From positions 1 through 64,000 of the forward strand of contig NZ_JACXZA010000005.1 in assembly GCF_014779765.1 (NCBI RefSeq): DNA of 64,000 nt. Reading direction: 5' to 3'. Each line of letters opens with the position of its first letter. Positions within the stretch are counted from its first letter, which is position 1. Source of the DNA: Paenibacillus terricola (GTDB taxonomy: Bacteria; Bacillota; Bacilli; Paenibacillales; Paenibacillaceae). The notes beneath the pieces were generated by a model. The model worked only from the letters and a program-made list of their open reading frames with translations. It did no database searches and was not told the origin of the DNA. Shown here in pieces: positions 4,928-43,859 of this stretch. A program made the translations under genes and the position numbers.

Positions 4928-7900
4928 TTACTTCACATCATCCTCCAGGGCGCCTTTCCAACCTTCTCCGCCAGCTTCGTTGTGTACGGAGATGTGCGAT
5001 ACAGTCGCTTCTTGAACATCACCGAATGCCCAGTGCGTAGACGGCATATCAGGGAATATTGGAGCTAGACCCGTCAATGGACCACGATACAGCATACGGT
5101 TAATCATCGTAACCGCTTCGGCACGCTTGATCTTATCGTTCGGCTTGAAGCTGCCATCCGGATAACCCGTCAAGAATTTGCCGTTATATAGCGTCTCGAT
5201 GATCGAGCCTGCCCAATGCCCAGCCGTATCTTTGAAATGGTTCGATGCGCTGCTGCTTACGTTGATCTTCAGGAATCGCGCCATAACGGCTGCCAGCTCT
5301 GCACGTGTAACAGGTGCATCAGGACGGAAAGTGCCATCCTGGTAACCGCTGAAGAGACCGTATTTGGACGCAATCTTGATATAACGGGTTGCCCAGTGTC
5401 CTTCACGGATATCCGTATACGGGAGCGTATACGCGATGTCGCCGTTATCGGTCAGACGCGCGACGATTGCCGCAAGTTCTGCACGAGTAAGCGAGCCGTT
5501 CGGCTTGAACTCTTTGTCCGGGTAACCAAGGATATAACGATAATGCGACAACTCGCCGAAACGATCGGAGTAAAGATGGATTGGCGTCGAAGCCTTCACT
5601 TCAATACCGGAACTGCTAAGCTGCGCTTGGAGCGTAACGTCGGATTCAGCTTGCTCCAGAAGCGGCCATTGAACCGTCAGCTTAATGCTGCCCGTTTGTC
5701 CGCCTGCAACATTAGCGATATCCCACACGATCGTATTGCCTTCAACCTTGCCTCCTGCTGCATCAACGACAACAGCACCTTCAGGCAGTGTTACTTTCAC
5801 TTGACCAGTCGACAATGGCGTCGAGGAATCATTCTTATAGGTAACCGTTACTTGCGTTTGACCGCCCTCTTCAACCGTATTCGCATCAACGCTCAGGCTC
5901 AACGAAGCCTTAGGCGCTTCAACAACCGGTGGTACGTATATCGATGGTCTGCGCAGTTGAACATCATGTCTAACAATATCCGTCTCGACGGACAGTGTTC
6001 CGCTCGTATAGGTTGCATAACCATCCTTCGAAACGGTTATCACATAATCGGTGTGCGGATATACCATGTAAGCATATAAGCCGCTTGCATCGCTGAATTG
6101 CATCGGACTGTCGTTATCGTTAGGAGCAAACCCATCGATAGGCGGCAGCGTTACCAATGCGCCAGCCGTCAGCCCTTTCTTCTTGTTGCGTTCAGTATCC
6201 GCATACGAAAGTACGACCTTCGCATTCTCGATTACAGCATTCGTATCCGCATCGGTGATCGTTCCGTACGGATCGATCAGCTCTTCCGCGATATTCATCT
6301 CGCCCGTAGCCGAAACTTGCGCCGAGCCTTTACCGATTACAATCTCTTCTTTCGAATTGAAACGGTAACGGAACTCGAGTTCATAGTTGCCGACTTCTAA
6401 TCCGTCTGCGTGGAAGACACCGTTGCTGTCAACTGGGAATGCTATCGGATTACCATTGTCAGAGACGTAGTCACCGTCTTCATTCTTCAAATAGACGAAC
6501 ATTCCTGTCGTCATATCGGATTTGAGCAGCGCCTTCGAGCCATCTGGCTGCTGCATGAACGCAATGCCTGTAATCGTCTTGCTGGCAGCGAACGTCTCTT
6601 CGCCGGCTCCGCTTACGGTACCAACCGCAGCAGTTTGGTGGTATGTGACCTGTTTGGTACTATCGCCAATCTGAACCGGCTGTATGATATCGACGTTATA
6701 AACGACATTTCCTTTCGGAACGATGACTTTATACGCGCCCTTCTCATCCGTCAATACCGTTTCATCGAAATCAACGCCTGCTTCAATGACGCCATCGCCA
6801 TTCAAATCGAGCGTTACGCGAACGCTTGCGCCTTGAACTGGCACATTCTTCTTACTATCAGGATCGAACTTCGTTACAACCCCTTTGACGGATGCCGGCA
6901 TGAACGTTACTTTAATCTCGTCCTTGGCGGACAATCCTTTTACAGGATCGTATACGACAGCTTGAATCGCCATCTGTTGTTCAACTACACCTGTAATGAG
7001 CGGTACCTGATATGTAACCTCCGCTTGACCCTTCGCATCCGTTACAGTACTGCTGCCGCCAATGAACGTTCCTTGGCCTGCAGGGGCTGTGAAGTTAACG
7101 GCAACGCCTTCAACAGGTGCGCCATCCTCGTCCGTCAACACAGCGCGAAGCACAGTCGTTGACTTGCCGTCGCCTAACAGTTCCTTCGGATCAGCAGTCA
7201 ATACGAGACCTGCTGCCGCAATTCTGAATTGGTTATCCGCCAGCTTCGCCTGCGATTCAGTCTGCAGCACGGTGTTAGCCGCGTCAACCGCTGTGAACGT
7301 CACGGTGTAAGCACCGCTCTGTGTCGCTGCTGGCAGTGTGAACGTTGTATTCACCCATAACTTGTAGCCGTCCGTCATCCACGTCGACGCATTAGCCAAT
7401 TGAAGCTGAACTTGCGTCCCATCCACATTCGCTATAACGGATTCCGCCAGATGCGAACTGATTGCCGACAGCTTCAACTGCTGTTCAGGCAGCGTCTTCA
7501 CGACGGTTGGGTCTCCTTGCTCCTTATCGCCTACCCAGCCTTCAAGCGGCTTCTGGAGATTGATAACAACTTCAACAGATGCGCTCTTATGATCATCTTC
7601 ATCCGTAACCGTATACGTGAAGCTATCTACGCCAGCTGTAAACCCTTCAGCCGGTGTATAAATCCACGATGCACCAGTCGGATCCGATGTATCTTTCGTA
7701 AGCGTACCTTTCGCCGGTTCGCTCTCGATCGTATAGATCAGCTTATCCTGCGTCGTTTCGGGATCATTGCCTTGCAATGCAACGTTAATCGATGTTGTTC
7801 CTTCGTCCTCCGTATAACCAAGCGGTACCGCAGTCGGCAGTCCTGCCGCTGCAACGTAGAACTTGTTATCCGCCAGCTTCAGAGACGATTCTGTCTGAAG

Positions 7901-10900
7901 AACAGTGCTAGTCGCATCAGCAGCGGTGAACGTAACCGTATGGTTGCTGCTTGCTGTATCTGTTGGGAGCACGAACGTTGTGTTCACCCACAGCTTGTAG
8001 CCATCTGTCTCCGCAGTCGATGCATTAGCCAGTTGGAGCGAAACAGGAGTGCCATCTACATTCGCCGTCACAGACGCTGCAAGATGCGAGCTGATTGCCG
8101 ACAGCTTCAGCTCCTGATCCGGTTGTGCTTTGACTACTGTTGGATCACCTTGCTGTTTGTCGCCAACCCAGCCGTCCAGAGGCTTCTGAAGATGGATAAC
8201 GACCTGAGCAGGTGCACTCTTATGATTATCTTCATCGGTAACCGTGTACGTAAAGCTGTCTGTACCGGATTTATAATCAGCTGCCGGTGTATAAATCCAC
8301 GATGTGCCTGTCAAATCTGTTGCGTTCTTCGTTAACGTACCTCTGGATGGATCGCTCTCGATCGTGTACGTCAGGTCGTTCTGCGAAGTTTCCGGATCGC
8401 TGCCTTGCAGCTTAACGTTGATCGATACTGTTCCTTCATTATCCGTATAGACCAGCGCTACTGCAGTCGGAAGTCCTGCTGCTGCGATATAGAACTTATT
8501 ATCCGCCAGCTTATCATTCGACTCCGTCTGAAGAGTAGGATTCGCTGCATCAGCCGCAGTGAATGTAACCGTATGGTTACCGTTCGTTGTGCCCGTCGGG
8601 AGCACGAACGTCGTATTCACCCACAGCTTGTAGCCGTCCGTCGTCCAGGTTGTTGCATTAACAAGCTGAAGCGGAACCGAATTACCGTCCACCTTCGCTG
8701 TCACGGATGCCGCAAGATGCGAACTGATCGCCGACAGTTTCAACCCTTGGTCAGGTTGTGCCTTAATGATTGTCGTGTCGCCTTGCTGCTTGTCGCCAAC
8801 CCAGCCGTCTAACGGCTTTTGAATATGAATAGTGACCTGAGCAGGTGTGCTCTTATGACCATCTTCATCGGTGACGGTGTAAGTAAATGTATCTGTCCCG
8901 GTAAAATCATTTGCCGGCGTATAGATCCACAACGTCCCTGTCGAATCCGATGGATCTTTCGTTAGCGTACCTTTGGATGGGCCGCTCTCAATCGTATAAA
9001 TCAGATCGTTCTGCGCTGTTTCAGGGTCGCTGCCCTGAAGCGTAACGTTGATCGACGCTACCCCTTCATTGTCCGTGTAGACAAGAGCAGTAGCCGTTGG
9101 CAGTCCTGCTGCCGCAATGTAGAACTTGTTATCTACAAGCCGCACAGGCGATTCCGTCTGAACCGTTTGTCCAGCCGCATTCGCTGCCGTGAACGTTACG
9201 GTATGAACGCCGCTTGTCGTGTCCGATGGGAGCACGAATGTCGTGTTCGCCCATAGCTTGTAGCCATCCGTCTGCCATGTGGACGCATTAGAAAGCTGAA
9301 GCGGAACCGCGCTGCCATCTACTGTCGCCGTTACGGACGATGCAAGATGGGAACTGATCGCCGACAGTTGAAGGCCATGATCAGGCTGCGCCTTGACTAC
9401 TGCAGGGTCACCTTGCTGCTTGTTGCCGACCCAGCCGTCCAGCGACTTCTGGACATGGATAGTAACCTGAGCAGGTGTACTCTTATGAGCATCTTCATCG
9501 GTAACGGTGTAAGTAAAGCTGTCTGTACCGGACTTAAAATCAGCTGCCGGTGTATAAATCCACGATGTTCCCGTCAAATCTGTTGCGTTCTTCGTTAACG
9601 TACCTCTGGATGGATCGCTCTCGATCGTGTACGTCAGGTCGTTCTGCGCTGTTTCCGGATCGCTGCCTTGCAGCGTAACGTTGATCGATACTGTTCCTTC
9701 GTCATCGGTATAGACCAGCGGCACTGCAGTCGGAAGTCCTGCCGCTGCGATATAAAACTTATTATCCGCCAGCTTATCATTCGACTCTGTCTGAAGAGCA
9801 GGATTCGTTGCATCAGCCGCTGTGAATGTAACCGTATGGTTACCGCTCGTTGTGCCCGTCGGGAGCACGAACGTCGTATTCTCCCACAGCTTGTAGCCGT
9901 CCGTCGTCCAGGTTGTTGCATTAACAAGCTGAAGCGGAACCGAGTTACCGTCCACCTTCGCTGTCACAGATGCCGCAAGATGCGAACTGATCGCCGACAG
10001 CTTCAACCCTTGGTCAGGTTGTGCCTTAACGATAGTCGTGTCACCTTGCTGCTTGTTGCCAACCCAGCCATCCAGCGGCTTCTGGACATGGATGACACCA
10101 GTTGCTGGCGTACTCTTCTGGTTATCTTCATCGGTAACGGTATAAGTGAAGCTGTCCGTGCCTGTAAAGCCGCTTGCCGGCGTATAGGTCCAAGAAGCAC
10201 CAGTCGGATTCACCGAATCTGCCGTAAGCGTACCATGTGCCGGGGATGTCTCGATCGCATAAGACAACTTGTCCGACGAAGATTCTGGATCGCTGCCTTG
10301 CAGCACAACATCAACGCTGTGCGTCCCTTCATCCACCGTAAATGTAACCGGCTCTGCAGTTGGAATGCCGTTGTAGTTGATCTTCACTTGTGCCGGCTGC
10401 GCTGAATCATGCATGCCGTCATTGCCGATCCAAGTAAACGTCGGAACGGTTCCATCTGCAAGATTAGCAGCAGGCGTGAACGTAAGCGTTGCAAGTTCAG
10501 ATGCCGTCAGCACTACCGATTGCCCTGGTGCAATCGCTGCAGCACTTGCTCCTGACTTCGTATACGTGATCGTTCCCATGCTGGCGAATCCAGTCGGAAC
10601 GGAAATGCTAGCCTGTTGGAGTGCGTCGCCATCAGCATCCTCATAAGAGGCAGCAATGGCGAAATCGTTCGTCGTAAATACGGTAGGAGTTCCTTTCTGA
10701 CCGTTCTTGACGATATCGTACACGACAGGAGGACGGTTAATAATGATCGTGACCGTCTTCGGCACAAATGCATATTGGAGACCGTCCGAGCCATTCCATT
10801 GGAAGGATGTCGAACCAGTCGCACCAGCCTCCGGAATAAATACGACATGCGAGGATTGGGCTAACGAGAGCTCCTGTCCTGCCGTAATATCAGTAAACGA

Positions 10901-12595
10901 ACCGGATCCGTTATCCAGAGCGAGCTTGCCGGTCGTTGAATCCGGCAGCGTAACAATCTTGACGCCCTCGATCGATTCATTACCTGGATCGATGTAGTGG
11001 GCTGTGAAATCACCGAGTGTAATCGGCAGCGTCAGATCGCCGAATTTCGCGACTTTCACAAAATCCTGTACCTCTGGCGAACTGTTAATCGTGACCGTAG
11101 CGTCATCGGTTGCAAATCTCGTGCCGTTGTAGCCGTTCCACTTGAACGTTGCAGTGCCGTCGAAGCCTGTTGGCACAGGAACAAACGACAAACTTGGCAG
11201 GTCGCCCACTGCGATCAATTGACCAGCAGTTACAGGTACCGCGTTCAGTTCCAGTTTGCCTTTGGCAGCGTCCGGCAGTTCCGTAATGCGAACCGACTGC
11301 AGATTCGTGCCATTAGGCGCTCCGCCGTTCAGCTTGAAGTAATGGTCCTGGAAGTCGGATTTCGCGAATGCCGTTGGGTCAGAACGAAGACCGGACTTCG
11401 CAAAGTCTTGCACCACCGGATCAAGCGTTGAGAATGTCACAACATGCTCCGCTTTGCCCGGGTTCGTTCCGCTGGTCGTATCCTTCGCACCGCCATTATT
11501 ACCGCGGTCATCGAAGAGTACAACGTTAACGACATACTCTTTGCTCGGATCAATGCCGCTGTCCGTAATGACGATGTTATTCCAATTCACTTCCGTACCG
11601 GCTTGAGGGGCAGGAAAGAGCTTTTGCTGGAGGCCCAGGTTGCGCTCGATCACTTGGCCGTTCACAACCGCCTTCTCGATGACGTTTACTTCTCCAGCGA
11701 AATTGTTGCCGGATACTTTGGGCAAGAAACTTGCATCAATGGTTACTTTGCCATTCTCGACTTTAAGCCCCGTGTTCGTGATTTCACCGGTCGTCCGGTC
11801 GCCCCCGTCGATAACAAGCTGGCCCCAGTCGATCGTCATCGACCAGTTCGTGTTTGGCGTACTCGAGGTGGTGCGAACGTCTTGATAGTAATGGTGAATC
11901 GTCACACCAACATAGTTGTCGCCCATTCCAATACGATCGAATTCACTTGGCGAGAACGACAATACGGTGGTATTCCATCTCGAATCCTGACCTGATAATG
12001 TACCAAGATAAGCTCGCTGAGGCATTTCCCTCTTATAGTTGATACCGTAGACGCCACCAACCAATGCACTGTCCGAACCGAGACTTGAAGTGATCCCTGA
12101 AGCTTTCACTGCATTATTCCATTGGGTGCTGACCGGCCAGGTCGTGTATGAAGTCCCTGGCGCAATATCGGAAGCCGTCGATGAGAAGTAGACGCGGTCC
12201 CATTCACCGCTTGCGGCGAGCGCTTCCTTATATTCGTCGACGTCATACGCACGGATAAGCAGCTGTGCGCTCTTGACCGGCTTCTTGGCTACACCCGTAA
12301 TCTTGAAATCAATCGGGTACTTCGTGTAATTATCGGCCGTCTGCTTATTCTGGTTCTTCAAACTAATATCCAGATCGCCGTCGGCTGCGCTCGTCGCTGC
12401 ACCGCCACCCCAATTGTCGGTATCCGTCATATAGGCGGCACCCAACAGTCCAGGGTCAACAGCAGCTTGCGCTTGTCCTGGCGGAACGAGCAGCGAGCCA
12501 GACAACATCGCCCCCGTCAGTGTTAGAGCAAGAAGCTGATTGCGCAGCGTCTTCCTGCCCGTCCTGTTCGTGTTCCTTGTCCTATCATTTAACAC
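4928..12595 (-). CDS. Giant secreted surface protein with tandem modules and three SLH domains
   Basis: The protein has about 2555 residues. I place the start at the GTG at 12595 because AAGGAGAG lies correctly before it; the in-frame ATG at 12625 has a poor site. A signal peptide (RKTLRNQLLALTL... ending GQAQA) is followed by a large N-terminal beta-rich region, two to three FN/VCBS-like units, and then five tandem modules starting [LE]DGWVG/LEGWVG. Each is joined to a cadherin-like unit (DSFTYTVTDED), except the fifth. An invasin-type Ig (Big_1) domain follows, then carboxypeptidase-regulatory-like units, a DUF11-like unit and three C-terminal SLH domains (ILGYPDKEFKPNGSLTRAE, GYQDGTFRPDAPVTRAE, GYPDGSFKPNDKIKRAE). 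SLH domains bind pyruvylated secondary wall polymers, so the protein should sit non-covalently on the cell wall. Adhesion or structure is likely; no enzymatic domain was recognised. Confidence 0.9.
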   Translation of the reverse strand: MLNDRTRNTNRTGRKTLRNQLLALTLTGAMLSGSLLVPPGQAQAAVDPGLLGAAYMTDTDNWGGGAATSAADGDLDISLKNQNKQTADNYTKYPIDFKITGVAKKPVKSAQLLIRAYDVDEYKEALAASGEWDRVYFSSTASDIAPGTSYTTWPVSTQWNNAVKASGITSSLGSDSALVGGVYGINYKREMPQRAYLGTLSGQDSRWNTTVLSFSPSEFDRIGMGDNYVGVTIHHYYQDVRTTSSTPNTNWSMTIDWGQLVIDGGDRTTGEITNTGLKVENGKVTIDASFLPKVSGNNFAGEVNVIEKAVVNGQVIERNLGLQQKLFPAPQAGTEVNWNNIVITDSGIDPSKEYVVNVVLFDDRGNNGGAKDTTSGTNPGKAEHVVTFSTLDPVVQDFAKSGLRSDPTAFAKSDFQDHYFKLNGGAPNGTNLQSVRITELPDAAKGKLELNAVPVTAGQLIAVGDLPSLSFVPVPTGFDGTATFKWNGYNGTRFATDDATVTINSSPEVQDFVKVAKFGDLTLPITLGDFTAHYIDPGNESIEGVKIVTLPDSTTGKLALDNGSGSFTDITAGQELSLAQSSHVVFIPEAGATGSTSFQWNGSDGLQYAFVPKTVTIIINRPPVVYDIVKNGQKGTPTVFTTNDFAIAASYEDADGDALQQASISVPTGFASMGTITYTKSGASAAAIAPGQSVVLTASELATLTFTPAANLADGTVPTFTWIGNDGMHDSAQPAQVKINYNGIPTAEPVTFTVDEGTHSVDVVLQGSDPESSSDKLSYAIETSPAHGTLTADSVNPTGASWTYTPASGFTGTDSFTYTVTDEDNQKSTPATGVIHVQKPLDGWVGNKQQGDTTIVKAQPDQGLKLSAISSHLAASVTAKVDGNSVPLQLVNATTWTTDGYKLWENTTFVLPTGTTSGNHTVTFTAADATNPALQTESNDKLADNKFYIAAAGLPTAVPLVYTDDEGTVSINVTLQGSDPETAQNDLTYTIESDPSRGTLTKNATDLTGTSWIYTPAADFKSGTDSFTYTVTDEDAHKSTPAQVTIHVQKSLDGWVGNKQQGDPAVVKAQPDHGLQLSAISSHLASSVTATVDGSAVPLQLSNASTWQTDGYKLWANTTFVLPSDTTSGVHTVTFTAANAAGQTVQTESPVRLVDNKFYIAAAGLPTATALVYTDNEGVASINVTLQGSDPETAQNDLIYTIESGPSKGTLTKDPSDSTGTLWIYTPANDFTGTDTFTYTVTDEDGHKSTPAQVTIHIQKPLDGWVGDKQQGDTTIIKAQPDQGLKLSAISSHLAASVTAKVDGNSVPLQLVNATTWTTDGYKLWVNTTFVLPTGTTNGNHTVTFTAADAANPTLQTESNDKLADNKFYIAAAGLPTAVALVYTDNEGTVSINVKLQGSDPETSQNDLTYTIESDPSRGTLTKNATDLTGTSWIYTPAADYKSGTDSFTYTVTDEDNHKSAPAQVVIHLQKPLDGWVGDKQQGDPTVVKAQPDQELKLSAISSHLAASVTANVDGTPVSLQLANASTAETDGYKLWVNTTFVLPTDTASSNHTVTFTAADATSTVLQTESSLKLADNKFYVAAAGLPTAVPLGYTEDEGTTSINVALQGNDPETTQDKLIYTIESEPAKGTLTKDTSDPTGASWIYTPAEGFTAGVDSFTYTVTDEDDHKSASVEVVINLQKPLEGWVGDKEQGDPTVVKTLPEQQLKLSAISSHLAESVIANVDGTQVQLQLANASTWMTDGYKLWVNTTFTLPAATQSGAYTVTFTAVDAANTVLQTESQAKLADNQFRIAAAGLVLTADPKELLGDGKSTTVLRAVLTDEDGAPVEGVAVNFTAPAGQGTFIGGSSTVTDAKGQAEVTYQVPLITGVVEQQMAIQAVVYDPVKGLSAKDEIKVTFMPASVKGVVTKFDPDSKKNVPVQGASVRVTLDLNGDGVIEAGVDFDETVLTDEKGAYKVIVPKGNVVYNVDIIQPVQIGDSTKQVTYHQTAAVGTVSGAGEETFAASKTITGIAFMQQPDGSKALLKSDMTTGMFVYLKNEDGDYVSDNGNPIAFPVDSNGVFHADGLEVGNYELEFRYRFNSKEEIVIGKGSAQVSATGEMNIAEELIDPYGTITDADTNAVIENAKVVLSYADTERNKKKGLTAGALVTLPPIDGFAPNDNDSPMQFSDASGLYAYMVYPHTDYVITVSKDGYATYTSGTLSVETDIVRHDVQLRRPSIYVPPVVEAPKASLSLSVDANTVEEGGQTQVTVTYKNDSSTPLSTGQVKVTLPEGAVVVDAAGGKVEGNTIVWDIANVAGGQTGSIKLTVQWPLLEQAESDVTLQAQLSSSGIEVKASTPIHLYSDRFGELSHYRYILGYPDKEFKPNGSLTRAELAAIVARLTDNGDIAYTLPYTDIREGHWATRYIKIASKYGLFSGYQDGTFRPDAPVTRAELAAVMARFLKINVSSSASNHFKDTAGHWAGSIIETLYNGKFLTGYPDGSFKPNDKIKRAEAVTMINRMLYRGPLTGLAPIFPDMPSTHWAFGDVQEATVSHISVHNEAGGEGWKGALEDDVK
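7190..10090 (-). repeat. Five tandem ~630-bp coding modules inside the SLH protein gene
   Basis: Module starts (DGWVG/EGWVG codons) fall near 10060, 9430, 8800, 8170 and 7540, a period of about 630 bp. By eye, 8220-8800 matches 9480-10060 much more closely than it matches the adjacent module, so there is a second-order period of 1260 bp (two modules). Confidence 0.8.
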
Positions 12596-12785
12596 TTCGG
12601 TCTCTCCTTGTTCCCAAATTTCCATGCCTTTGTCGGCTATGGAGGTCTGACACTAATTGTAGCAACTGAAACTATACAATTTTTGAACAAGAGTCTCTGG
12701 CACTAAAACTAGAAGAGTCGATCCTAGATCGACTTCCCTATATTTCCTGACAAAGAACCACGAAGGATGACTATATCAACAGAAA

Positions 12786-12859: not shown

Positions 12860-13624
12860 TTAGATGGTCGGCATTACGTTACCGCCTGAGACTGGTACGT
12901 ATGCGCCCGTTATAAAGCTCGCCAGATCCGAAGCCAGGAAGGCGACAACATTCGCAATTTCCTGGTCTGTTCCCCGTCGGCGCAGAGGCACTTGGCTGTC
13001 ATAACCTTCGCTGCGTTCGGTGCCATTCAACCGATCCCGCTCGCTGATCGTCCAGCCGGGCGCTACTTGGTTTACCGTGATCTGATGCTCGCCAATCTCC
13101 CGCGCCAGCACACGGCATACCCCGTCCATCCCCCGTTTGCCTGCAACGTAGGCGGACTGCGTCGGGAAGTTCTGCATCGCGCACTCCGTGTTAATGGCAA
13201 TGACGCGTCCGCCGCGTTGTTCAACCATATGAGGCACGAACGCCTTGGTCGTATGAACAAGCTGCAGCACGGTTGTATTAAATTGATCCACGTAGTCCGC
13301 TACATCCTGCTCAAGTACAGACATCCATTTATATTGTGATACAGCGTTAGCAACAACGATGTCCGGCAGTTGGAACTGCTCTGCCACCTGCGCCTGCATC
13401 CGCTGAACCGATTCCAGCTGTCCCATATCTGCTTGTACGATAAACGCCTGGCGACCAAGCTGCTCAATCTCCTGCTGCAGCTGCTTCGCCTTCGATTCAC
13501 TGCTGTGATAGTGAATAATAATATTGGCTCCGCTCTGTGCAAGCGTACGTGCGATGACGCGTCCCAGTTCGCCTGTCGCCCCTGTTACGAGTGCTGTCTT
13601 GTTGGATAAATCGATCGAAATCAT
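12860..13624 (-). CDS. SDR family oxidoreductase (FabG-like) with altered active site
   Basis: This 254-residue classical short-chain dehydrogenase has a Rossmann motif TGATGELG (14-21) and YxxxK (Y159, K163), and its C-terminal GGxxMPTI-like end fits the family length. Two usual residues differ. The catalytic Ser, 13 residues before the Tyr, is Thr146 in INTECAM, and the NNAG motif reads ANAVS (91-95). Threonine can sometimes replace the serine, so activity is uncertain rather than excluded. AGGAGG lies 11 bases before ATG. It follows agrA after a hairpin terminator (13664-13682), so it may be read through from agr or have its own promoter. A role in tailoring the polyketide-peptide is possible but rests on proximity alone. 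Confidence 0.8.
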   Translation of the reverse strand: MISIDLSNKTALVTGATGELGRVIARTLAQSGANIIIHYHSSESKAKQLQQEIEQLGRQAFIVQADMGQLESVQRMQAQVAEQFQLPDIVVANAVSQYKWMSVLEQDVADYVDQFNTTVLQLVHTTKAFVPHMVEQRGGRVIAINTECAMQNFPTQSAYVAGKRGMDGVCRVLAREIGEHQITVNQVAPGWTISERDRLNGTERSEGYDSQVPLRRRGTDQEIANVVAFLASDLASFITGAYVPVSGGNVMPTI

Positions 13625-13682: not shown

Positions 13683-13704
13683 CCAAGTCTGTTCTTACAT
13701 TCGA

Positions 13705-14439
13705 TTAGTGCTGCACGATATCCTTCAACCCTTTGAGAAAACGGCTGGATGCATAGCAGATCTGTCCGTTCGTCATCCGAATCTCCCGCTTCGACATATC
13801 GACCTCGGCGATATTGTCCTTATTCACGACATACGAGTTATGGCACCGATAGAAGCGGCTGTCCATCTCGAGAATGTCTTTGAGCTTGCCGTAAAATTCA
13901 ACTTGTCGATTGGTAGCATGCAGGATGATTTTGTGCAGTTGAGAGGAAGTCTCGAAGAACAGGATGTCGCTGTAATCGACACCTATCATTTTGTCGCCAG
14001 ACTTGGTCTGGAAAACCTTTCGGTTGCTGTGCTTATTCATGAGATAACGTTGATTAGCTGTATCGATGCAATCGATGATCCGTTTCTGGATATCGGTGAA
14101 TTTGTCTTTCGTTATATAGTCCATCGCTTCTACCTTATAGGTGAACGTCAGGTAGGTAAGCTCCGAGTGCGTCGTGATGAACACGATTGCGCCTTGGTTG
14201 TCATATTGGCGAATTTCCGCTCCAAGCGCAATGCCGCTTTTATCCTCCTTCAGATCCACATCGAGAAAATAAAGACCCGTCACCTGATTATTGCGCAAAT
14301 AGTCGATAACATCTTCAGAATTCCCTGTGGACACGACGATCTTCATATCCAGGTTCTCAATCATGATGTAGTCAGACACATACTTCGTAATCTGGCTGCG
14401 CTGCTGCGGATCATCTTCACAAATAAACACTTCGAGCAT
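13705..14439 (-). CDS. agrA: AgrA-type LytTR response regulator
   Basis: This 244-residue regulator has a receiver domain (1-125; E8/D9/D10, phosphoacceptor D60 in YFLDVDLKED, T90, K111) and a LytTR DNA-binding domain (about 140-240, with FFETSSQLHKIILH and FYRCHNSYVVNKDNI). AgrA/ComE proteins bind pairs of 9-bp direct repeats like ACAGTTAAG spaced about two helical turns apart and recruit polymerase to promoters with poor -35 boxes. AAGGAGG lies 10 bases before ATG. It is separated from the second agrC by 28 bp and so is co-transcribed. Candidate target sites lie upstream of the biosynthetic operon at 43793-43859. Confidence 0.93.
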   Translation of the reverse strand: MLEVFICEDDPQQRSQITKYVSDYIMIENLDMKIVVSTGNSEDVIDYLRNNQVTGLYFLDVDLKEDKSGIALGAEIRQYDNQGAIVFITTHSELTYLTFTYKVEAMDYITKDKFTDIQKRIIDCIDTANQRYLMNKHSNRKVFQTKSGDKMIGVDYSDILFFETSSQLHKIILHATNRQVEFYGKLKDILEMDSRFYRCHNSYVVNKDNIAEVDMSKREIRMTNGQICYASSRFLKGLKDIVQH

Positions 14440-14467
14440 CGTTAATTCGCCTCCTTGCGTGGACTGG

Positions 14468-15793
14468 TCAACCAGTCATTCTCGACTTCGTTATCGGTCC
14501 GTTGAACACTTCGAGCAGTTGAATGAACTCACCGTTCACAATCTGTGTATCAAGTGTCGCGCTCTCCGTTCTGGACACGATTTCTTTCAGGTTGCTAAGA
14601 CCAAGCCCCCTATTCGTTCCTTTGGTCGAGAAACCTCGCTCAAAGATTCGGTGAAGCTCCGGCGTATTGCTGCGGCAGCTGTTCGTGACCGCAATAAGCA
14701 CCGATTGGTCCCGTTTGATGACGGCTGCTCGCACGGTTGGCGTCTCGCAATGCACAGCTTCTTCTATTGCATTATCGAGTAGAATGCCGAGGCAGCGGCA
14801 CAGCTGGACGGAATCCATATTCACCTGCTCGATCGTCTCTACTACTTCAATGACCGCGTCGATCTTCAGCTCCTGCGCTTTGATCAGCTTGGAGGACAGA
14901 ATGCCCTTGAGCTCCTGCAGCCTCACATTGTGCAGCGCACCCAGCTTGTAGTTATTCGACTGCATGCCTTGGCTGATCGGCATAATTCGTTCATTAAAGT
15001 AGCGTTCCAACCGCTCTGCGTCACCAGAACGAATGTAGTCCGACATCGTCAGCAAGATGTTGATATAGTCGTGGCGGAACTTCTGCATATCGATATAAAG
15101 CTGTTCCAGATTGTCCGTATATTCGGTCAGCCTGTCATATTGCACCTGCTTATTCTGAATGTCGGCTTCCTTCATCATGATTCGGACAAGCACGATACAA
15201 ACGACAATCAGCAGGATGAAATAGAAGAAGAATAGAATGCTGTTGGCCCGGATATTATCATCGGTAAAGCCCTGCTGCTTGCCGATTAATATATTCACAT
15301 AGAAGATAATAAGGGTGAGCGCACTGAGCACAGTGAACAGCAAGCCGTACCGTTTGATGGGCATTTCGTGGGTGATAAATATACGGAATAGGTAGCTGAA
15401 GGAAAGAGCCAGCAGTAAAGAGACCACGAGTGATAATCCGTTATAGAACGGTGTCTCCCAAGTATCCCCATTCGTTACAGGGTCCTTATGCAAAACTACG
15501 ATATAAAAGGTGTTCACGATATAATCACTGATAACATTTATGATCTGTGCTAGGATAGGAACAATCGCGCCGATTACAGGCTTACGCAGACGTTTAATTA
15601 TGAGGGCAGCGAGCCAACCTAGCACAGCAAATACGCCAATTGGACCTAGCCAATTATAGCTGAAATAACCGATTGCCTGTCCGCCAAGCAGCATGAGAAG
15701 CAAAGTGTCCCAGCCCAATCGCTGCCCAAGTAATAGACGAGCAGACACAACCATCATCGTAACCTGGATTAGTATGGAAATAAATATAATCAT
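14468..15793 (-). CDS. agrC: AgrC-like peptide-sensing histidine kinase, copy 2 (promoter-distal)
   Basis: This 441-residue kinase has six or seven predicted membrane helices (1-205) and a GHKL kinase core: KFRHDYINIL with H241, the N-box LLDNAIEEA and the G-box NRGLGLSNLKE. From residue about 165 to the end it is nearly identical to the kinase at 16055-17380, whereas the first 160 residues, which bind the peptide in AgrC proteins, share little. That pattern means duplication followed by divergence or exchange of the sensor half. GGAG lies 8 bases before ATG. A separate promoter candidate lies at 15901-15930, so this copy and agrA may be expressed apart from copy 1. Confidence 0.92.
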   Translation of the reverse strand: MIIFISILIQVTMMVVSARLLLGQRLGWDTLLLMLLGGQAIGYFSYNWLGPIGVFAVLGWLAALIIKRLRKPVIGAIVPILAQIINVISDYIVNTFYIVVLHKDPVTNGDTWETPFYNGLSLVVSLLLALSFSYLFRIFITHEMPIKRYGLLFTVLSALTLIIFYVNILIGKQQGFTDDNIRANSILFFFYFILLIVVCIVLVRIMMKEADIQNKQVQYDRLTEYTDNLEQLYIDMQKFRHDYINILLTMSDYIRSGDAERLERYFNERIMPISQGMQSNNYKLGALHNVRLQELKGILSSKLIKAQELKIDAVIEVVETIEQVNMDSVQLCRCLGILLDNAIEEAVHCETPTVRAAVIKRDQSVLIAVTNSCRSNTPELHRIFERGFSTKGTNRGLGLSNLKEIVSRTESATLDTQIVNGEFIQLLEVFNGPITKSRMTG

Positions 15794-15900
15794 GTCTGCT
15801 GCTCCGAAATCAAAGTAGGCTCACACTTACACAATGGAGCTCTCTCCACCTCTACTATCTAGCAATACAGCCCAGTAATGGATAGTGTAAGATTTCTTCA

Positions 15901-15930
15901 ATTGTAAGATATAGCTACTTTTCCAGTCAA
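15901..15930 (-). promoter_or_regulatory. Candidate promoter for agrC copy 2 and agrA
   Basis: On the minus strand TTGACT (15930-15925), an 18-bp spacer and TACAAT (15906-15901) precede the second agrC by about 107 bp. Two copies of TGTAAGAT on the plus strand (15886-15893 and 15903-15910, 17 bp apart) overlap and follow the -10 and could be regulator contacts. The remaining 260-bp spacer between the two kinase genes shows no gene. Confidence 0.45.
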
Positions 15931-16054
15931 GAATCGGACAGCGAATAGGCCGTTCAACACCGCGCCTGACAAATCGCTCGATCAGTGTGCTGAGCAGCCT
16001 AGCCTAGTTCTCATTTACACAATCTCCTGCAAATCGCTGCTTCTCGCGAACTTA

Positions 16055-17380
16055 TCAGCCCGTCATTCTAGATTTCGTCGTAACCGGCGAACCATACACC
16101 TCGAGCAGTTGAATGAATTCTCCGTTCAAGATCTGCGTATCGAGCGTAGTACTCTCGGATTTGGCCACGATCTCCTTCAGATTGCTAAGACCAAGCCCCC
16201 GATTCGTCCCTTTGGTCGAGAAGCCTCGTTCAAAGATTCGGTAAAGCTCCGGCGTATCGCTGCGACAGCTGTTCGTAACCGCAATGAGCACCGATTGATC
16301 CCGTTTAATGACGGCTACCCGTACGCTTGGCGTCTCGCAATGTACAGCTTCCTCAATGGCATTATCGAGTAAAATGCCGACGCAGCGGCACAGCTGTACG
16401 GAATCCATACTTACCTGCTCGATCGGCTCCACTACCTCAATAACCGCATCGATCTTCAACTCCTGCGCTTTGATCAACTTGGATGAAAGGATGCCCTTAA
16501 GCTCCTGCAGCTTCACATTGTGCAGCGTGCCGAGCTTATAGTTATTCGACTGCATGCCTTGGCTGATCGGCATGATTCGATCATTAAAGTAACGCTCTAA
16601 CCGCTCCATATCACCGGAACGGATATATTCGGACATCGTTAACAGGATGTTGATATAGTCATGGCGGAACTTCTGCATATCCATATACAGCTGCTCAAGA
16701 TTCTCCGTATATTCCGTCAGTCGTTCATACTGCACCTGCTTGTTCTGCAAATTCGTTTCTTTCATCATGATCCGTATTAGAACAACACAGACTACGACTA
16801 AAAGAATGAAATAAAACAAAAACAAGATGCTATTCGCGCGAATATTCTCATTCGAAAATCCTTGCTGCTGGCCGATCCATATATTCAAATAAAAAATAAG
16901 CAAAGTAATGATGACCATCGCGGTAAGGAGCGCACCATAACGCCGAAAGAATGGCTCGTGATCTCGCATTGTACCAAATAGATATCTTCCGAGGTAGCTT
17001 AAAGCGAAGGTGAGCAGCATAATGCCGGTTACTCCAGAAACGAGATACTTATCCTGCATATCGGCGTTGGAGAGATCAAAAACCTGCTGCGCAAACAAAG
17101 CGATGACATAATCGCTGACGACCACCAAAATCATCGGAATCACAGCCACTATGATGCTTAACAGCCACCGTCTGCTCATATAGTATACGCAGCCTATCAG
17201 AAACACTAATATGACGAGACTGCTCATGGCGCCCATCAGCGGCAATAGAGCTAAACCTATCGTTAAAGATCCCGCCAACATAATCAACGAAAGTCCGAGT
17301 CCGATCCTTCGTTTCATTAATATCGGGATAGAGAAGCAGAATGTCGCCATCTGTATGAGCGAAGCTATAAACGTAATCAT
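16055..17380 (-). CDS. agrC: AgrC-like peptide-sensing histidine kinase, copy 1 (next to agrBD)
   Basis: This 441-residue paralogue of the kinase at 14468-15793 has the same length and the same GHKL core (KFRHDYINIL with H240; LLDNAIEEA; NRGLGLSNLKE), including an SRMTG C-terminus. Its membrane half is different in sequence. Known AgrC proteins recognise a cyclic peptide on this half and phosphorylate AgrA from the cytoplasmic half. Because the two catalytic halves are almost the same, both should feed the same AgrA. The spacing from agrD includes a hairpin (17541-17575) and an inverted repeat (17483-17521). AAGGTGG lies 6 bases before ATG. Confidence 0.92.
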   Translation of the reverse strand: MITFIASLIQMATFCFSIPILMKRRIGLGLSLIMLAGSLTIGLALLPLMGAMSSLVILVFLIGCVYYMSRRWLLSIIVAVIPMILVVVSDYVIALFAQQVFDLSNADMQDKYLVSGVTGIMLLTFALSYLGRYLFGTMRDHEPFFRRYGALLTAMVIITLLIFYLNIWIGQQQGFSNENIRANSILFLFYFILLVVVCVVLIRIMMKETNLQNKQVQYERLTEYTENLEQLYMDMQKFRHDYINILLTMSEYIRSGDMERLERYFNDRIMPISQGMQSNNYKLGTLHNVKLQELKGILSSKLIKAQELKIDAVIEVVEPIEQVSMDSVQLCRCVGILLDNAIEEAVHCETPSVRVAVIKRDQSVLIAVTNSCRSDTPELYRIFERGFSTKGTNRGLGLSNLKEIVAKSESTTLDTQILNGEFIQLLEVYGSPVTTKSRMTG

Positions 17381-17474
17381 AACGATCCACCTTCGACTAT
17401 TTTATTGGAATACCGCTGTCATTGGTTGGATTATTCCACTCACCTCTCCAGGGTCGATTAAACTACCGTATCGC

Positions 17475-17540: not shown

Positions 17541-17575
17541 TATCCGCCCTCATCATTAGCTGATGACGGCGGATA
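17541..17575 (-). terminator. Hairpin between agrD and agrC (terminator or attenuator)
   Basis: TATCCGCC (17541-17548) pairs with GGCGGATA (17568-17575), and the stem extends inward with TCATCA/TGATGA. The T tract after it is weak, so it may be a leaky terminator that lowers kinase expression relative to agrBD. Confidence 0.55.
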
Positions 17576-17613: not shown

Positions 17614-17781
17614 TTACTTGCTGGACGATTTCAACAGTTCTTGTGGAACGCTCGGTTCATAGCCGAACAGCATGCATGACGTTTCCATCGTTACTTCACC
17701 TGTCCGGAGCGCGAATTTCCCCATTGTCTTCGACAGTTGACCTTTGATACCCTCTACCATTTTCTCACTCATATTTTTCAT
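17614..17781 (-). CDS. agrD: AgrD-like autoinducing peptide precursor
   Basis: This is a 55-codon gene. Residues 1-32 form an amphipathic leader (MSEKMVEGIKGQLSKTM...). The core METSCMLFG is followed by a tail YEPSVPQELLKSSSK. Aligning with S. aureus AgrD (core CDFIM, then DEPKLPEEL) puts C36 as the thiolactone cysteine, with ring C-M-L-F-G and cleavage before YEPSVPQEL. Residues before the cysteine (E-T-S or shorter) would form the exocyclic tail. Its ATG overlaps the last 17 bases of agrB, so the two are translationally coupled. GGAG lies 11 bases upstream. The exact mature peptide ends are inferred, and a six-residue ring ending at Y41 is the main alternative. Confidence 0.9.
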   Translation of the reverse strand: MKNMSEKMVEGIKGQLSKTMGKFALRTGEVTMETSCMLFGYEPSVPQELLKSSSK

Positions 17782-18388
17782 AGTTTCGAACACTCCTCTT
17801 TAATAGTTTATATGTAATAGGCAGGATCGTTATGATTTGCAGCGCAACTCCCAGCATGAGCAGGGTTGTCACCGTTGAACTTGGTATTAAGATTGCGATA
17901 AGGGTAAGGATCATTGATGTGGCAGCGGACGACCTTCTTAGCTTTCTTCTGCGATCTGCGCCGATCAACGGGAACTTGTCCGTATCCGCTGGCGCATAGC
18001 GGTAAAGCAAAGCGGCGAATAAGAGACCTAATCCGATGACTGTAAGCTTCGAGAGGTTGATGTAGGAGCCAATGAGTGGGGTACCAACAAACATGAGGAT
18101 ACTGACCAAGGTGCAGTTCACACTGTTTCTTGCATGGAGCCCGAATGCATATCGGCGAATTGCGTAGAAGGCACCGTGAACAATAAGCGTCTGAAGAAAC
18201 AGATGACAGACTAGCGAGATTCCGTAAATGATGAGAGTCTTGGTCAAGTTGATCAGGAGCATCTCGATGCCGAGCTTCATTTTCAAATACGCGATACGGT
18301 CTCCGTTATTCTGTGTACTAAGCCATGCTGCACACCGAGTTGCTATCGTTTCCGTCAAACCCATTCTAACAACTTGCTGTTCTTGCAT
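17765..18388 (-). CDS. agrB: AgrB-like membrane peptidase of the autoinducer peptide
   Basis: This 207-residue membrane protein has about five hydrophobic segments. It keeps the AgrB catalytic pair H85 and C92 (LHARNSVNC), with the same seven-residue spacing as His77/Cys84 of S. aureus. AgrB cuts the C-terminal tail of AgrD and forms the thiolactone. The C-terminus is basic and ends VRNYEKYE, reading into agrD. GAGGTGA lies about 9 bases before the ATG. It is the first gene of the agr unit. The upstream 18389-18554 has no gene and no clear -35/-10 pair. Plus-strand GCAGTTATG at 18499-18507 weakly resembles an AgrA half-site. Confidence 0.93.
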   Translation of the reverse strand: MQEQQVVRMGLTETIATRCAAWLSTQNNGDRIAYLKMKLGIEMLLINLTKTLIIYGISLVCHLFLQTLIVHGAFYAIRRYAFGLHARNSVNCTLVSILMFVGTPLIGSYINLSKLTVIGLGLLFAALLYRYAPADTDKFPLIGADRRRKLRRSSAATSMILTLIAILIPSSTVTTLLMLGVALQIITILPITYKLLKRSVRNYEKYE

Positions 18389-40518: not shown

Positions 40519-41625
40519 TTAAATGTTCTCGGTCCTCACACGGGACAACAGGGCGAACAGCACAGCCGCGCAGACCAGCAAGCTGATCATATGCGTCGTG
40601 ATGGAAGCTGCATTGCCCGAGAAGCCGCTGAACACTTCCTTGTTCAACTGTGTAATCCAGCCTGTCGGCAGCAGCTTCGCCAGCTTCTGCATCCCCTCCG
40701 GCATGATCGACGTATCCCAGAGCGTACCGCCGAGCATCGCCAGCGGCAGCGAGACGACGCTGATCAGCAAGCGGCCTGTCGACAACCGCGTCGTCCGGCT
40801 GACAAGCAGCAAGCCGATACCGGCGGCAATGACGTTCAGTAAACCGTAGGCTGCAACGAGCAGCAGCAGCTGACCGATGGACAGCGACAGATCAATCTGG
40901 AACACGGTACTCATGAGAAGAATCATAAGCAGGAACTGTGCAATGCCGATCGCCGCGAACACGCCAACCGTCTGCAGGTAATAATTCAACCGGCTGTACG
41001 TCGACAGCAGCACACGCTGCGTTGTCATGTGGATTTTGTCCCCGAGGAAGAGCATCGTGTTCGTCATCGTCAGGAACAACATGATGAAGACGATCATGTT
41101 GAACGCGCTTGTCAGAACGACAGCATTCGGATTGCCGATAATGCTCTGCTTCACTTGAATCGGAGCAGCAGATTGTTCCGCCTTGAGCAGATTCGCCTCG
41201 AACGCTGCCTCGTCTGCGGAGTTATGCGCCAGCGTCTTCATAACGGAGAAGATGCTGTTCAGCTTGATCTCCAGCGAGCTGGCATTGTAGCTGCCGCCTT
41301 CGGAATAGAAGGCCGCCGACAACGCATCCGGTTTCGCGAATACGTCCTTGGCGCTCGTCGTCAAGACGATGCCGACGTCCGCGTCATGATGGATCGCATC
41401 TTCCTCCATCTCCGCGTGCGTTACCGTCACATCCTGCTTCTCCAGCATCGCCGTCAAATAATTGTCCAGCGTTGGATCCTCTACATAAGTGGATACCGTT
41501 AATTTCGTTGCCGATTCATATTGGGCGACTACCGAGTAAGTGAAGAGCACTGGCAGTACGATGATGAGAATAAGCGTCAGCTTGCGTTTCAAAATCCGCC
41601 TAGCATACAGCTCGAATACGTGCAT
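40519..41625 (-). CDS. ABC-2 type permease subunit (second)
   Basis: This 368-residue membrane protein has one N-terminal helix (about 15-34), a large extracytoplasmic domain (about 35-165) and five C-terminal helices (about 170-365). That is the shape of the YhgE/YhaP-type ABC-2 permease. It starts one base after the previous stop. It should pair with the permease at 41627-42793 and the ATPase at 42797-43714 to export the product or protect the cell. Confidence 0.9.
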   Translation of the reverse strand: MHVFELYARRILKRKLTLILIIVLPVLFTYSVVAQYESATKLTVSTYVEDPTLDNYLTAMLEKQDVTVTHAEMEEDAIHHDADVGIVLTTSAKDVFAKPDALSAAFYSEGGSYNASSLEIKLNSIFSVMKTLAHNSADEAAFEANLLKAEQSAAPIQVKQSIIGNPNAVVLTSAFNMIVFIMLFLTMTNTMLFLGDKIHMTTQRVLLSTYSRLNYYLQTVGVFAAIGIAQFLLMILLMSTVFQIDLSLSIGQLLLLVAAYGLLNVIAAGIGLLLVSRTTRLSTGRLLISVVSLPLAMLGGTLWDTSIMPEGMQKLAKLLPTGWITQLNKEVFSGFSGNAASITTHMISLLVCAAVLFALLSRVRTENI

Positions 41626-41626
41626 C

Positions 41627-42793
41627 TTAGCGGACCCCCTTCCTCGTGAGCGAATAGACCGAAATCAAGATGAACCCGAGTGCAGCGACGAGTGACGAGT
41701 ACACCGGCGCCAGATTGATCACACCTTGTTGGATGTAATCGAACAGCGGTTGTTGATACAACTCGTTGATGCTCATATTCTTCAGACCGCCCAGGTCGAT
41801 CTTGATGAAGCCGCCGCCGATGAAAGTCATCACTGGAATGAGCAGCGTGACGACACTGTCGATTGCCTTCACGCGTCTAGCGATAACACCGAGAATAAGC
41901 CCCAGTGCATTGAAGAAGATCGAGCCTGCCACGATGATGAAGAATACGACCAGCATGTTGTCGCCATAGCTGACATCGAAGAACCACTGGGCACATAGCA
42001 CGATAATGATGCCCTGCACAATCGAGATTGCGCAGCCCGTCAGCAGTTGGCCAAGGATGAGCGATGTGCGCGACAACGGCGATACGAGATAACGGTCACC
42101 AAGCGCTTCGCTGTATTCCTCTTGGACAAAATTCATCGTATTCGCCAGACCGTATACGAGAATGAGCACGAGCATCGTTACGCCATAGTAGCTGAGTGCC
42201 GTAATGTTGCTAGAGTCGTCCTTGCCGTCCGTACTGCCATCCTTGCTCCCATTCGTTGTTAACAGGTTGCTGTAGACATGTGTGTACAGCTCTTTCTGAT
42301 TGCCTGCGCTAGAGACGTCCATTGCTAGATAGCCGTCTCCGAATGTGGATAACATCAGACCGGTTATATTCACCTTGTCGATATTGCTATCCTCGCCATA
42401 TACCGTGACATTGCTCTCCTTCTTGCTCTCGAAACCGCTCGTCAGATCGGACGGGATGTAGATGTACTGCTCTGCGTCGCCATCCTCGATCATTTGCTCT
42501 GCCTTCTTCGCATCGGTCTCGACCGTTACATCGAACAACGCCTTGTTGTCCTCGCTCGTCAGGAACGCCACGATATCTGCGCCGAGCTTGCCTTTGTCGT
42601 CATTAACGACGACGGTCTTCATCTGTGACAAACTTGCCGGAACGGCTGCTCCGCCCTCGTCATCCTTATCGAATACCGAGGAGAGCGCATTGCCCAAGAT
42701 CACGATGAGCAGCAGCGGCAGCAAAATGTAATTCACGATGATCGTCGGATTTTTCAACTTGCGTTTCATTGAGGTTGCGAATATGGTCCACAT
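41627..42793 (-). CDS. ABC-2 type permease subunit (first)
   Basis: This 388-residue protein has the same plan as its neighbour: an N-terminal helix (about 17-38), a long outside domain rich in D, K, G and S (about 40-200), then six hydrophobic segments and a short basic end. GAGGG lies before the ATG, 3 bp after the ATPase stop. It probably forms a heterodimer with the second permease. Confidence 0.9.
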   Translation of the reverse strand: MWTIFATSMKRKLKNPTIIVNYILLPLLLIVILGNALSSVFDKDDEGGAAVPASLSQMKTVVVNDDKGKLGADIVAFLTSEDNKALFDVTVETDAKKAEQMIEDGDAEQYIYIPSDLTSGFESKKESNVTVYGEDSNIDKVNITGLMLSTFGDGYLAMDVSSAGNQKELYTHVYSNLLTTNGSKDGSTDGKDDSSNITALSYYGVTMLVLILVYGLANTMNFVQEEYSEALGDRYLVSPLSRTSLILGQLLTGCAISIVQGIIIVLCAQWFFDVSYGDNMLVVFFIIVAGSIFFNALGLILGVIARRVKAIDSVVTLLIPVMTFIGGGFIKIDLGGLKNMSINELYQQPLFDYIQQGVINLAPVYSSLVAALGFILISVYSLTRKGVR

Positions 42794-42796
42794 GGG

Positions 42797-43714
42797 CTAA
42801 TCCCTCAAATTCTTCTTCGTTAATTTGAAAAACACTTGCTCCAGGTTCGGCGAGATGTACTGAAAGCTCTTAACTTCCTCTCCGAACGCATCCTTGATGA
42901 CCGTGATGGCACCAACGTCATTCTTCGGAATGCCGATCTCTACCATGTTGCCGTCCGTCGACAGCACATTGTACTGCTCTAGCTGCTTCGCATATGCCGT
43001 GCTCTTGCGCTGCAGCTCAAGCTTCAGAATCGCTTGGTCCGTATGCTGCTGGATAATGTCGTTCAGCGTGCCTTGGCACAGCAGCTGGCCGTTGTCGATG
43101 ATGCCGACATGGGAACAGATTTTCTCTACTTCTTCCATGTAGTGCGAGATATACACAACGGTCGTGCCGATCTGGTTCAGCTCGAGGATTGCATCGAGAA
43201 TCCGGTTGCGGGACTGCGGGTCAACACCGACCGTCGGCTCGTCGAGGATGATGACATCCGGATTGTGGACAATGCCGCATGCGATGTTCAGCCTGCGCTT
43301 CATGCCGCCGGAGAACTTCTTCGGCTTCTGGTTGCGCTCATCCCACAGACCGACGAACTCGAGTGCGAAGCGAACCTGCTTCTTCAATCGCTCGCCCTTC
43401 AGATCGTACAATTTGCCGAAAAACATAACGTTCTCATAAGCCGACAGATCGTACAGCAGCGCCAAGTCCTGCGGTACATAGCCGACGCGGCGGTTCGTGC
43501 TTGCGTTCATATGCTCATTGAACCATTGCAGCTTGCCGCCCTGCGGCTTATCCAAGCCGAGCATAACCTTCGTCAATGTCGATTTGCCGGCACCGTTAGG
43601 ACCGAGCAAACCATAGATTTGCTTATCTCCGATTGAGAGTGAGAGCCCCTTTAACACCGGTTTCTTTTTGTTATAGCTAAACTGAATGGCTTCCCCTGCA
43701 AATACTGTCCGCAT
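42797..43714 (-). CDS. ABC transporter ATP-binding protein (first gene of the operon)
   Basis: This 305-residue ATPase has Walker A GPNGAGKST (38-46), a Q-loop near 82, the signature FSGGM (134-138), Walker B VIILDEPTVGVDP (154-166) and the H-loop after YISHYMEE. It resembles the drug-export ATPases of the NatA/DrrA type and partners two ABC-2 permeases. GGGAGG lies 9 bases before ATG. As promoter-proximal gene it puts export or self-protection ahead of synthesis, a usual order for toxic metabolites. Confidence 0.93.
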   Translation of the reverse strand: MRTVFAGEAIQFSYNKKKPVLKGLSLSIGDKQIYGLLGPNGAGKSTLTKVMLGLDKPQGGKLQWFNEHMNASTNRRVGYVPQDLALLYDLSAYENVMFFGKLYDLKGERLKKQVRFALEFVGLWDERNQKPKKFSGGMKRRLNIACGIVHNPDVIILDEPTVGVDPQSRNRILDAILELNQIGTTVVYISHYMEEVEKICSHVGIIDNGQLLCQGTLNDIIQQHTDQAILKLELQRKSTAYAKQLEQYNVLSTDGNMVEIGIPKNDVGAITVIKDAFGEEVKSFQYISPNLEQVFFKLTKKNLRD

Positions 43715-43759: not shown

Positions 43760-43788
43760 AGTGTAGCATCGGCGTCCTGCATCTATAC
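43760..43788 (-). promoter_or_regulatory. Activator-type promoter of the NRPS/PKS operon
   Basis: On the minus strand TACACT (43765-43760) is a fair -10. Seventeen bases upstream the expected -35 reads GTATAG (43788-43783), far from consensus. The gap to the ATPase start is about 45 bp. A poor -35 directly preceded by three LytTR-like repeats is the layout of promoters that need an AgrA/ComE-type activator. This is inference, not demonstrated. Confidence 0.5.
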
Positions 43789-43792
43789 GTGC

Positions 43793-43859
43793 ATGTCGTA
43801 ACATGCACTTATGATGTAATAACTGTATAGGCGGGCGGCAGATAGCATGTCGTAACTGC
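43793..43859 (-). promoter_or_regulatory. Three LytTR/AgrA-like binding repeats
   Basis: On the minus strand: GCAGTTACGACAT (43859-43847), ACAGTTATTACAT (43826-43814), CATGTTACGACAT (43805-43793). Start-to-start spacing is 33 and 21 bp. The consensus RCAGTTAYKACAT contains the GTTA core of the AgrA 9-mer, and 21 bp is the spacing known for AgrA/ComE repeat pairs. The last repeat ends four bases upstream of the -35 position. Whether the local AgrA binds here is not shown. Confidence 0.65.

Follow-up and report, generated by a model that had tools for sequence, protein, structure and literature searches.

In staphylococci, the signal specificity of the agr system resides in a variable region of agrB, agrD and agrC, and the targets of the response regulator AgrA are described as two 9-bp sites (both in the available excerpt of PMC10482373). 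In the pneumococcal blp model outlined in PMC9532987, immunity breaks down between pherotypes since the signal goes unrecognised. A second receptor would solve this failure. Here we describe an agr locus of Paenibacillus terricola in which two AgrC-type receptor kinases, C1 and C2, lie in tandem beside one AgrA. The locus is part of a stretch of 64,000 nucleotides (positions 1 to 64,000 of contig NZ_JACXZA010000005.1), which is called the window below. The two receptors carry different sensors on a common kinase half. On balance, the pair probably acts as a two-signal receiver working onto one AgrA, with C1 hearing the strain's own peptide and C2 a foreign one, and relatives that make no signal probably eavesdrop to raise their self-protection. 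Eavesdropping is reportedly treated by Miller (2018), and cheaters by Son (2011).

Tandem receptors and their mosaic structure

The agr genes of the window, all on the minus strand, are as follows.

14468 to 15793, minus strand: agrC2, the second AgrC-type receptor kinase, 441 amino acids (open reading frame list, HATPase_c_5, intact kinase motifs)
About 15314 to 15793 and about 14468 to 15313, minus strand: sensor and shared half of agrC2
16055 to 17380, minus strand: agrC1, the receptor kinase adjoining agrD, 441 amino acids (open reading frame list, Pfam)
About 16907 to 17380 and about 16055 to 16906, minus strand: sensor and shared half of agrC1
13705 to 14439, minus strand: agrA, the shared response regulator, receiver plus LytTR, 244 amino acids (Pfam Response_reg, LytTR)
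17614 to 17793, minus strand: agrD, the peptide precursor, 59 amino acids, core SCMLFGY and then EPSVPQELL (TIGR04223, 28.7 bits, cut-off 19)
17765 to 18388, minus strand: agrB, the peptide-processing protease (PF04647, E 7e-33), sole AgrB of the genome

C1 and C2 are 27% identical before C1 residue 159 and 87% identical from there on (maximum-likelihood change point). The change point raised the log-likelihood by 82, against a maximum of 7.3 among 1000 shuffles, which places the switch from sensor to catalytic half far beyond chance. It falls within the penultimate transmembrane (TM) helix, so the shared part also takes in the last loop and the last TM helix. A first-pass annotation, made from the letters of the window, had put the switch at about residue 165 and called the kinases mostly unrelated before it and almost the same after it. 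The switch itself stands, and "almost the same" proved overstated: over residues 191-441 the two share 88% of the protein and 84% of the DNA sequence, and fourfold-degenerate sites are identical in 55 of the 91 that can be compared.

Both receptors have the features of an AgrC kinase, namely a GHKL ATP domain with N-box and glycine box and a phospho-acceptor His in the DHp helix. C1 and C2 are both intact kinases, each with the phospho-acceptor His, the Asn of the N-box and RGLGL; the annotation had named a missing essential residue as telling against its proposal. In C2, the catalytic part has a phmmer match to the kinase module 6e52 of S. aureus AgrC (E 3e-57), and the structure model of C2 agrees with the S. 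aureus AgrC kinase structures. Hydropathy and the model both give a polytopic membrane sensor of about six to seven helices; the model, of medium quality (mean predicted local distance difference test score 72) and used to confirm the AgrC fold only, places helices at 2-25, 28-49, 52-69, 72-100, 113-141, 143-173 and 178-256. C2 scored 276 bits against a cut-off of 500 for the NCBIfam model of staphylococcal AgrC (NF046015), which makes it AgrC-type and not the staphylococcal equivalog. AgrA likewise stays below its equivalog model (273 bits; NF046049 cut-off 400). Adjacent agrB, agrD, agrC and agrA make up an agr locus, and open reading frame layout, Pfam domains and locus comparison agree with the annotation that one AgrA serves both receptors while their sensors are separate.

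The single agrD noted for the window holds for the whole genome, which gave one AgrB match and one AgrD match. No third AgrC of the C1/C2 clade was found elsewhere in the genome (just a weak GHKL kinase), three-frame translation of the 261-bp gap between C1 and C2 gave no recognisable remnant of a second agrBD, and a search of 13700-17400 for inverted repeats able to flip the sensors returned only short, imperfect pairs. C1 lies beside agrD and its sensor is near those of other agrD-linked receptors; it would hear the cyclic peptide of the strain itself. C2, without an agrBD partner anywhere in the genome, would hear the peptide of other strains or species, and in the window it probably responds to a non-self peptide.

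Sensor exchange and gene conversion

The distribution of the system was surveyed in 394 genomes of the family, with four first-look candidates per genome scored in each of the AgrC and permease searches. An AgrC match at E<=1e-25 was found in 47 genomes, and 21 of the 394 carry the AgrC clade of the window (best E no higher than 4.3e-133, with the next at 1.4e-64). The annotation had advised counting agrC copies in related genomes; two full-length copies with all motifs occur in 4 of the 21, namely the window genome, P. cellulosilyticus (G001), G117 and G121. Broken copies exist as well. G196 has a frameshifted catalytic agrC remnant, and P. cellulosilyticus has a third, broken receptor copy between agrA and the second receptor (L004, 8254-8650), in which a sensor start is fused to the last agrC codons and an internal stop occurs.

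Sensor and catalytic trees were built from 19 AgrC copies. They leave out G088 (frame broken, like other genes of that assembly), five close copies of genus g9 (G167, G190, G239, G251, G255), the truncated and third copies of G365, the G196 fragment and the P. cellulosilyticus pseudogene. Sensor data rule against a sister pair of C1 and C2 (P value of the approximately unbiased test, p-AU, 1.5e-5), against a clade uniting the two receptors of the window with the two of P. cellulosilyticus (p-AU 0.0044) and against one made up of the four G117/G121 receptors (p-AU 2.2e-5). The catalytic halves group by genus: the four of the window and P. cellulosilyticus with support 91/94, the four of G117/G121 with 100/98. 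The C1 sensor is 83% identical to its P. cellulosilyticus orthologue. The sensors of G117 and G121 group with those of two different producers: receptor a of G117 goes with G136 (100/99) and receptor b with G085 (100/100). Both producers belong to that genus, and their AgrD cores differ.

These groupings bear on one alternative, that C1 and C2 hear the same own peptide and that the pair is added dosage only. A single agrD would fit it, and AgrC receptors can accept peptides that vary to some extent. With sensors that are only 27% identical and not sisters, and with G117a and G117b matching receptors linked to different AgrD cores, we regard it as very improbable.

The two producers, each with one receptor, show how a signal type may change. 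Between G136 and G085 the sensors are 26% identical, the catalytic halves 90% and AgrB about 91%; the AgrD leaders read alike and the cores differ (SCSLFNY and SCGFLLY). A variable sensor on a conserved kinase half has been exchanged together with the AgrD core, as one unit. C2 could be an intermediate in such a change, a duplicated or acquired receptor with no lasting function of its own, through which the lineage drifts to a new peptide before the old receptor is lost. The exchange of core and sensor between G136 and G085, on alike AgrB and catalytic halves, would suit this account, as would the copy remnants in P. cellulosilyticus and G196 and a duplication-then-divergence route described for Rap-Phr in the available text of PMC5199041. 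Two receptors persist in the window as well as in P. cellulosilyticus, which argues against a passing state, and we judge this account unlikely.

The annotation had derived the "identical" halves from recent duplication or gene conversion. Besides not being identical, they do not point to a recent duplication of agrC, which is rejected on silent sites: C1 and C2 differ by a synonymous divergence (dS) of 1.49 in the DHp region and of 0.58 in the ATP domain. Conversion did find support. The ATP-domain dS against the P. cellulosilyticus orthologues (1.05 for C1, 1.85 for C2) exceeds the C1-C2 value in both cases, and quartet site patterns give a conversion signal in the kinase core (coordinates converted from residue numbers).

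16181 to 16420, minus strand: kinase-core stretch of agrC1 with conversion signal, residues 321-400
14591 to 14830, minus strand: matching kinase-core stretch of agrC2

Within residues 321-400, the informative quartet sites group paralogues in 16 cases, orthologues in 0 and cross pairs in 4, versus 123 orthologue and 9 paralogue groupings before residue 181 (permutation p = 0.0003, sites from residue 190). Fourfold sites in residues 331-380 are identical within a genome in 17/23 (window) and 13/18 (P. cellulosilyticus), between orthologues in 7/20 and 6/19, and between cross pairs in 6/19 and 9/20. Patchy gene conversion predicts both the site patterns and the fourfold identities. Conversion of this kind would hold the inner halves alike while the outer halves diverge. 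Both receptors would thus stay fitted to the same AgrA and would probably be able to form mixed dimers, which are plausible because the DHp region and the last TM helices are common to C1 and C2.

Mixed dimers also open the way to a different role, in which C2 is a damper: without its agonist it would raise the threshold, through mixed dimers with C1 or through AgrA dephosphorylation, like staphylococcal cross-group peptides. The near-identical DHp and TM5-6 regions make such dimers plausible, and trans-autophosphorylation induced by the autoinducing peptide is described for AgrC in the excerpt of PMC10482373. Against it, every kinase motif is kept in C2, and the idea seems to us quite improbable.

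The locus of G365 (L046, 6462-12152) offers a further case. It holds three AgrC copies, each with defects. Ca, which adjoins agrB-agrD, keeps the His; its N-box Asn is replaced by Ser and its RGLGL by ISPAL. Cb, 86% identical to Ca in DNA, has the ATP domain deleted and the tail kept. Cc (439 amino acids, beside agrA) has Gln for His and an intact ATP domain. Conserved columns are kept in 40/48 (DHp) and 42/64 (ATP domain) for Ca and in 38/48 and 59/64 for Cc, and the ratio of nonsynonymous to synonymous substitution rates (dN/dS) of Ca and Cb is 0.13 overall. In this one genome, the complementary losses suggest a split histidine kinase, with a mixed receptor in which Cc may phosphorylate Ca or Cb. 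Such defects would require mixed dimers, which also counts in favour of the damper.

Receptors without a signal, and the exporter promoter

In the window, the agr genes end a block of about 30 kb on one strand, in the order ABC exporter, nonribosomal peptide synthetase/polyketide synthase (NRPS/PKS) cluster, agrBDC1C2A. Its further features are listed below.

43795 to 43824, minus strand: AgrA-type double box AGTTATTAC-N12-TGTTACGAC, upstream of the exporter
43760 to 43768, minus strand: extended -10-like element TGCTACACT, 26 bp past the box (coordinates derived from the box)
40519 to 43714, minus strand: ABC exporter, with an ATPase of 305 amino acids (DrrA-like) and permeases of 388 and 368 amino acids (Pfam, NCBIfam)
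18651 to 40465, minus strand: genes of NRPS/PKS synthesis, immediately upstream of agrB and kept in producers (Pfam)
17542 to 17574, minus strand: terminator-like inverted repeat in the agrD-agrC1 gap, with a promoter-like TTGACA sequence after it (read by eye)
12860 to 13624, minus strand: short-chain dehydrogenase downstream of agrA, still adjoining the receptors in P. cellulosilyticus (96%)

The Pfam domains of the NRPS/PKS genes are AMP-binding, thioesterase, ketosynthase (KS), PKS modules, acyltransferase, condensation and phosphopantetheinyl transferase. Just downstream of the block lies a repetitive protein of 2565 amino acids (4928-12625); an RHS-repeat protein of 2270 amino acids is encoded at 53608-60420. 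Across the family, the 388-residue permease (E<=1e-60) occurs in 20 of the 394 genomes, which are the 21 of the AgrC clade minus G328, and in most of the clade the agr genes adjoin the 3' genes of the cluster. G460, from another family, shows the full order of exporter, NRPS/PKS and agrBDCA with one receptor. A stand-alone KS protein is present in 16/21 (absent from G001, G117, G121, G221 and G328), and AgrB stands beside agrC in all but G001, G117 and G121 (18/21).

In these last three genomes the synthesis genes are gone and the exporter comes directly before the receptors. The local agrBD has been lost; the exporter, the box, agrA and two full-length agrC are kept. Upstream of agrC there are still a hairpin and a promoter-like stretch, similar by eye to the gap between agrD and agrC, which makes loss of agrBD and the synthesis genes likelier than late gain. 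Neither G117 nor G121 has a match to AgrB or AgrD anywhere in its genome, and the G121 assembly is a single contig. The two share the deletion, so their divergence would postdate the loss of the signal. Both have nevertheless kept two intact AgrC and AgrA, that is, receptor and regulator after signal synthesis was lost. Between G117 and G121, dN/dS is 0.20 and 0.17 for the two receptor sensors, compared with 0.15-0.16 in single-receptor producers, and 0.04-0.10 for the exporter ATPase, the 368-residue permease and AgrA. The sensor values lie near those of producers, indicating that these receptors are still constrained without a signal of their own. This retention under purifying selection argues against C2 as a mere intermediate in signal change, and in a non-producer there would be nothing for a pure damper to act on. 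The suggestion of the annotation that one receptor may listen to the signals of others gains indirect support, from two constrained receptors without agrBD whose sensors match two producer signal types.

Two observations on these genomes stand apart. Between exporter and agrC, G121 has two similar inserted repeats starting GAGGTTGTTCAAAAAGT (L042, 5994-6550) that are missing in G117 and are possibly small mobile elements. On contig 37 of G001 (L010, 1185-1956), a separate AgrB is found with an AgrD-like peptide without the core Cys (SASAYYIHQPETPEELLK); the other four members of the genus have one AgrB each.

What the receptors may control is suggested by the exporter promoter, whose pattern is AGTTATKAC-N12-TGTTAYGAC followed after 25-26 bp by TGCTACACT or a close form. 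The promoter table covers 19 of the 20 family genomes with the exporter (all but G251), and the box scores 16-18/18 in 18 of these 19, values that are partly by construction, since these very promoters served to set the consensus by eye. A genome scan in 6 of the 20 is a more independent check: G000, G001, G117, G121, G085 and G136 each contain exactly one box with 0 mismatches, and each lies upstream of the exporter. No clear AgrA box was found upstream of agrB or agrC in ten loci (best 14/18, in G328). Judging from the sequence, AgrA may bind the box at 43795-43824 and drive the ABC exporter, and read-through of the same-strand block would probably drive the NRPS/PKS product and the agr genes as well. 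In the non-producers, the receptor pair would then be an eavesdropping switch that turns self-protection up once a producer of one or the other signal type is nearby.

Several points weigh against the two-signal receiver. For the C2 sensor, identity to the P. cellulosilyticus counterpart is 48% and to every other sensor compared 33% or less, so that no producer with a C2-matching sensor was found among these. P. cellulosilyticus keeps an unrelated AgrB/AgrD pair on another contig, so its signal loss is local only. The exporter permease of G121 is broken by one base in a G run (L042, 3730-4886, one base missing relative to G117), which may reflect a sequencing error, phase variation or a recent loss. 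G186 and G460 have a weak box (13/18) upstream of their exporter genes. Conversion is patchy: residues 161-220 and the tail past 400 follow orthology, the catalytic tree pairs C2 with C2 of P. cellulosilyticus (92/89), and sisterhood of the catalytic halves of C1 and C2 is neither shown nor rejected (p-AU 0.216). The exporter could export the product alone and need not protect, so its protective role is putative, and the ligands assigned to C1, C2 and the receptors of relatives are predictions.

Significance and relation to known systems

Taken together, the pieces would form a multi-signal AgrC receiver with exchangeable sensors, one conversion-homogenised kinase half and a single AgrA, which in non-producers is a pre-emptive protection switch reading two producer types and in G365 a split AND-type sensor. 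As a whole this remains tentative, and we would not lean on all of its parts holding at once. If true, a bacterium can escape the own-signal-only limit of induced immunity through more than one receptor on one output, and the non-producers are naturally occurring, signal-blind former producers turned listeners. The evolution of agr signal types would be tied to an antibiotic-like cluster whose read-out, one AgrA box and one exporter, is clear and can be tested. In G365 the mixed receptor would be obligatory, an AND-type sensor of two peptides, and a natural split histidine kinase would make mixed dimers of the agr family directly testable. In the openly licensed literature, no report of the arrangement was found under tandem or second agrC, Paenibacillus agr, agr-linked NRPS, or AgrC eavesdropping or heterodimers, which does not establish its absence from print.

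Compared with described systems, the locus has the same gene set and AgrC architecture as the staphylococcal agr groups (agrBDCA, AgrC types I-IV), and G136 and G085 represent the allelic form, like the agr-group pattern in the excerpt of PMC10482373. Unlike in staphylococci, where the types are alleles of different strains, two sensor types stand in tandem on one chromosome with one AgrA, and AgrB, which shares in the staphylococcal variable region, has not diverged in the swapped pair G136/G085. Rap-Phr likewise has receptor duplication and orphan receptors that lack a signal of their own (PMC5199041); Rap receptors, however, are intracellular, and that system has no conversion-matched shared catalytic half. 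As in pneumococcal blp, with its immune non-producers and eavesdropping, toxin and immunity would be under peptide control. Here, by contrast, the signal would be an Agr-type cyclic peptide read by AgrC/AgrA, the output the ABC exporter of an NRPS/PKS cluster, and one and the same non-producer keeps two receptors.

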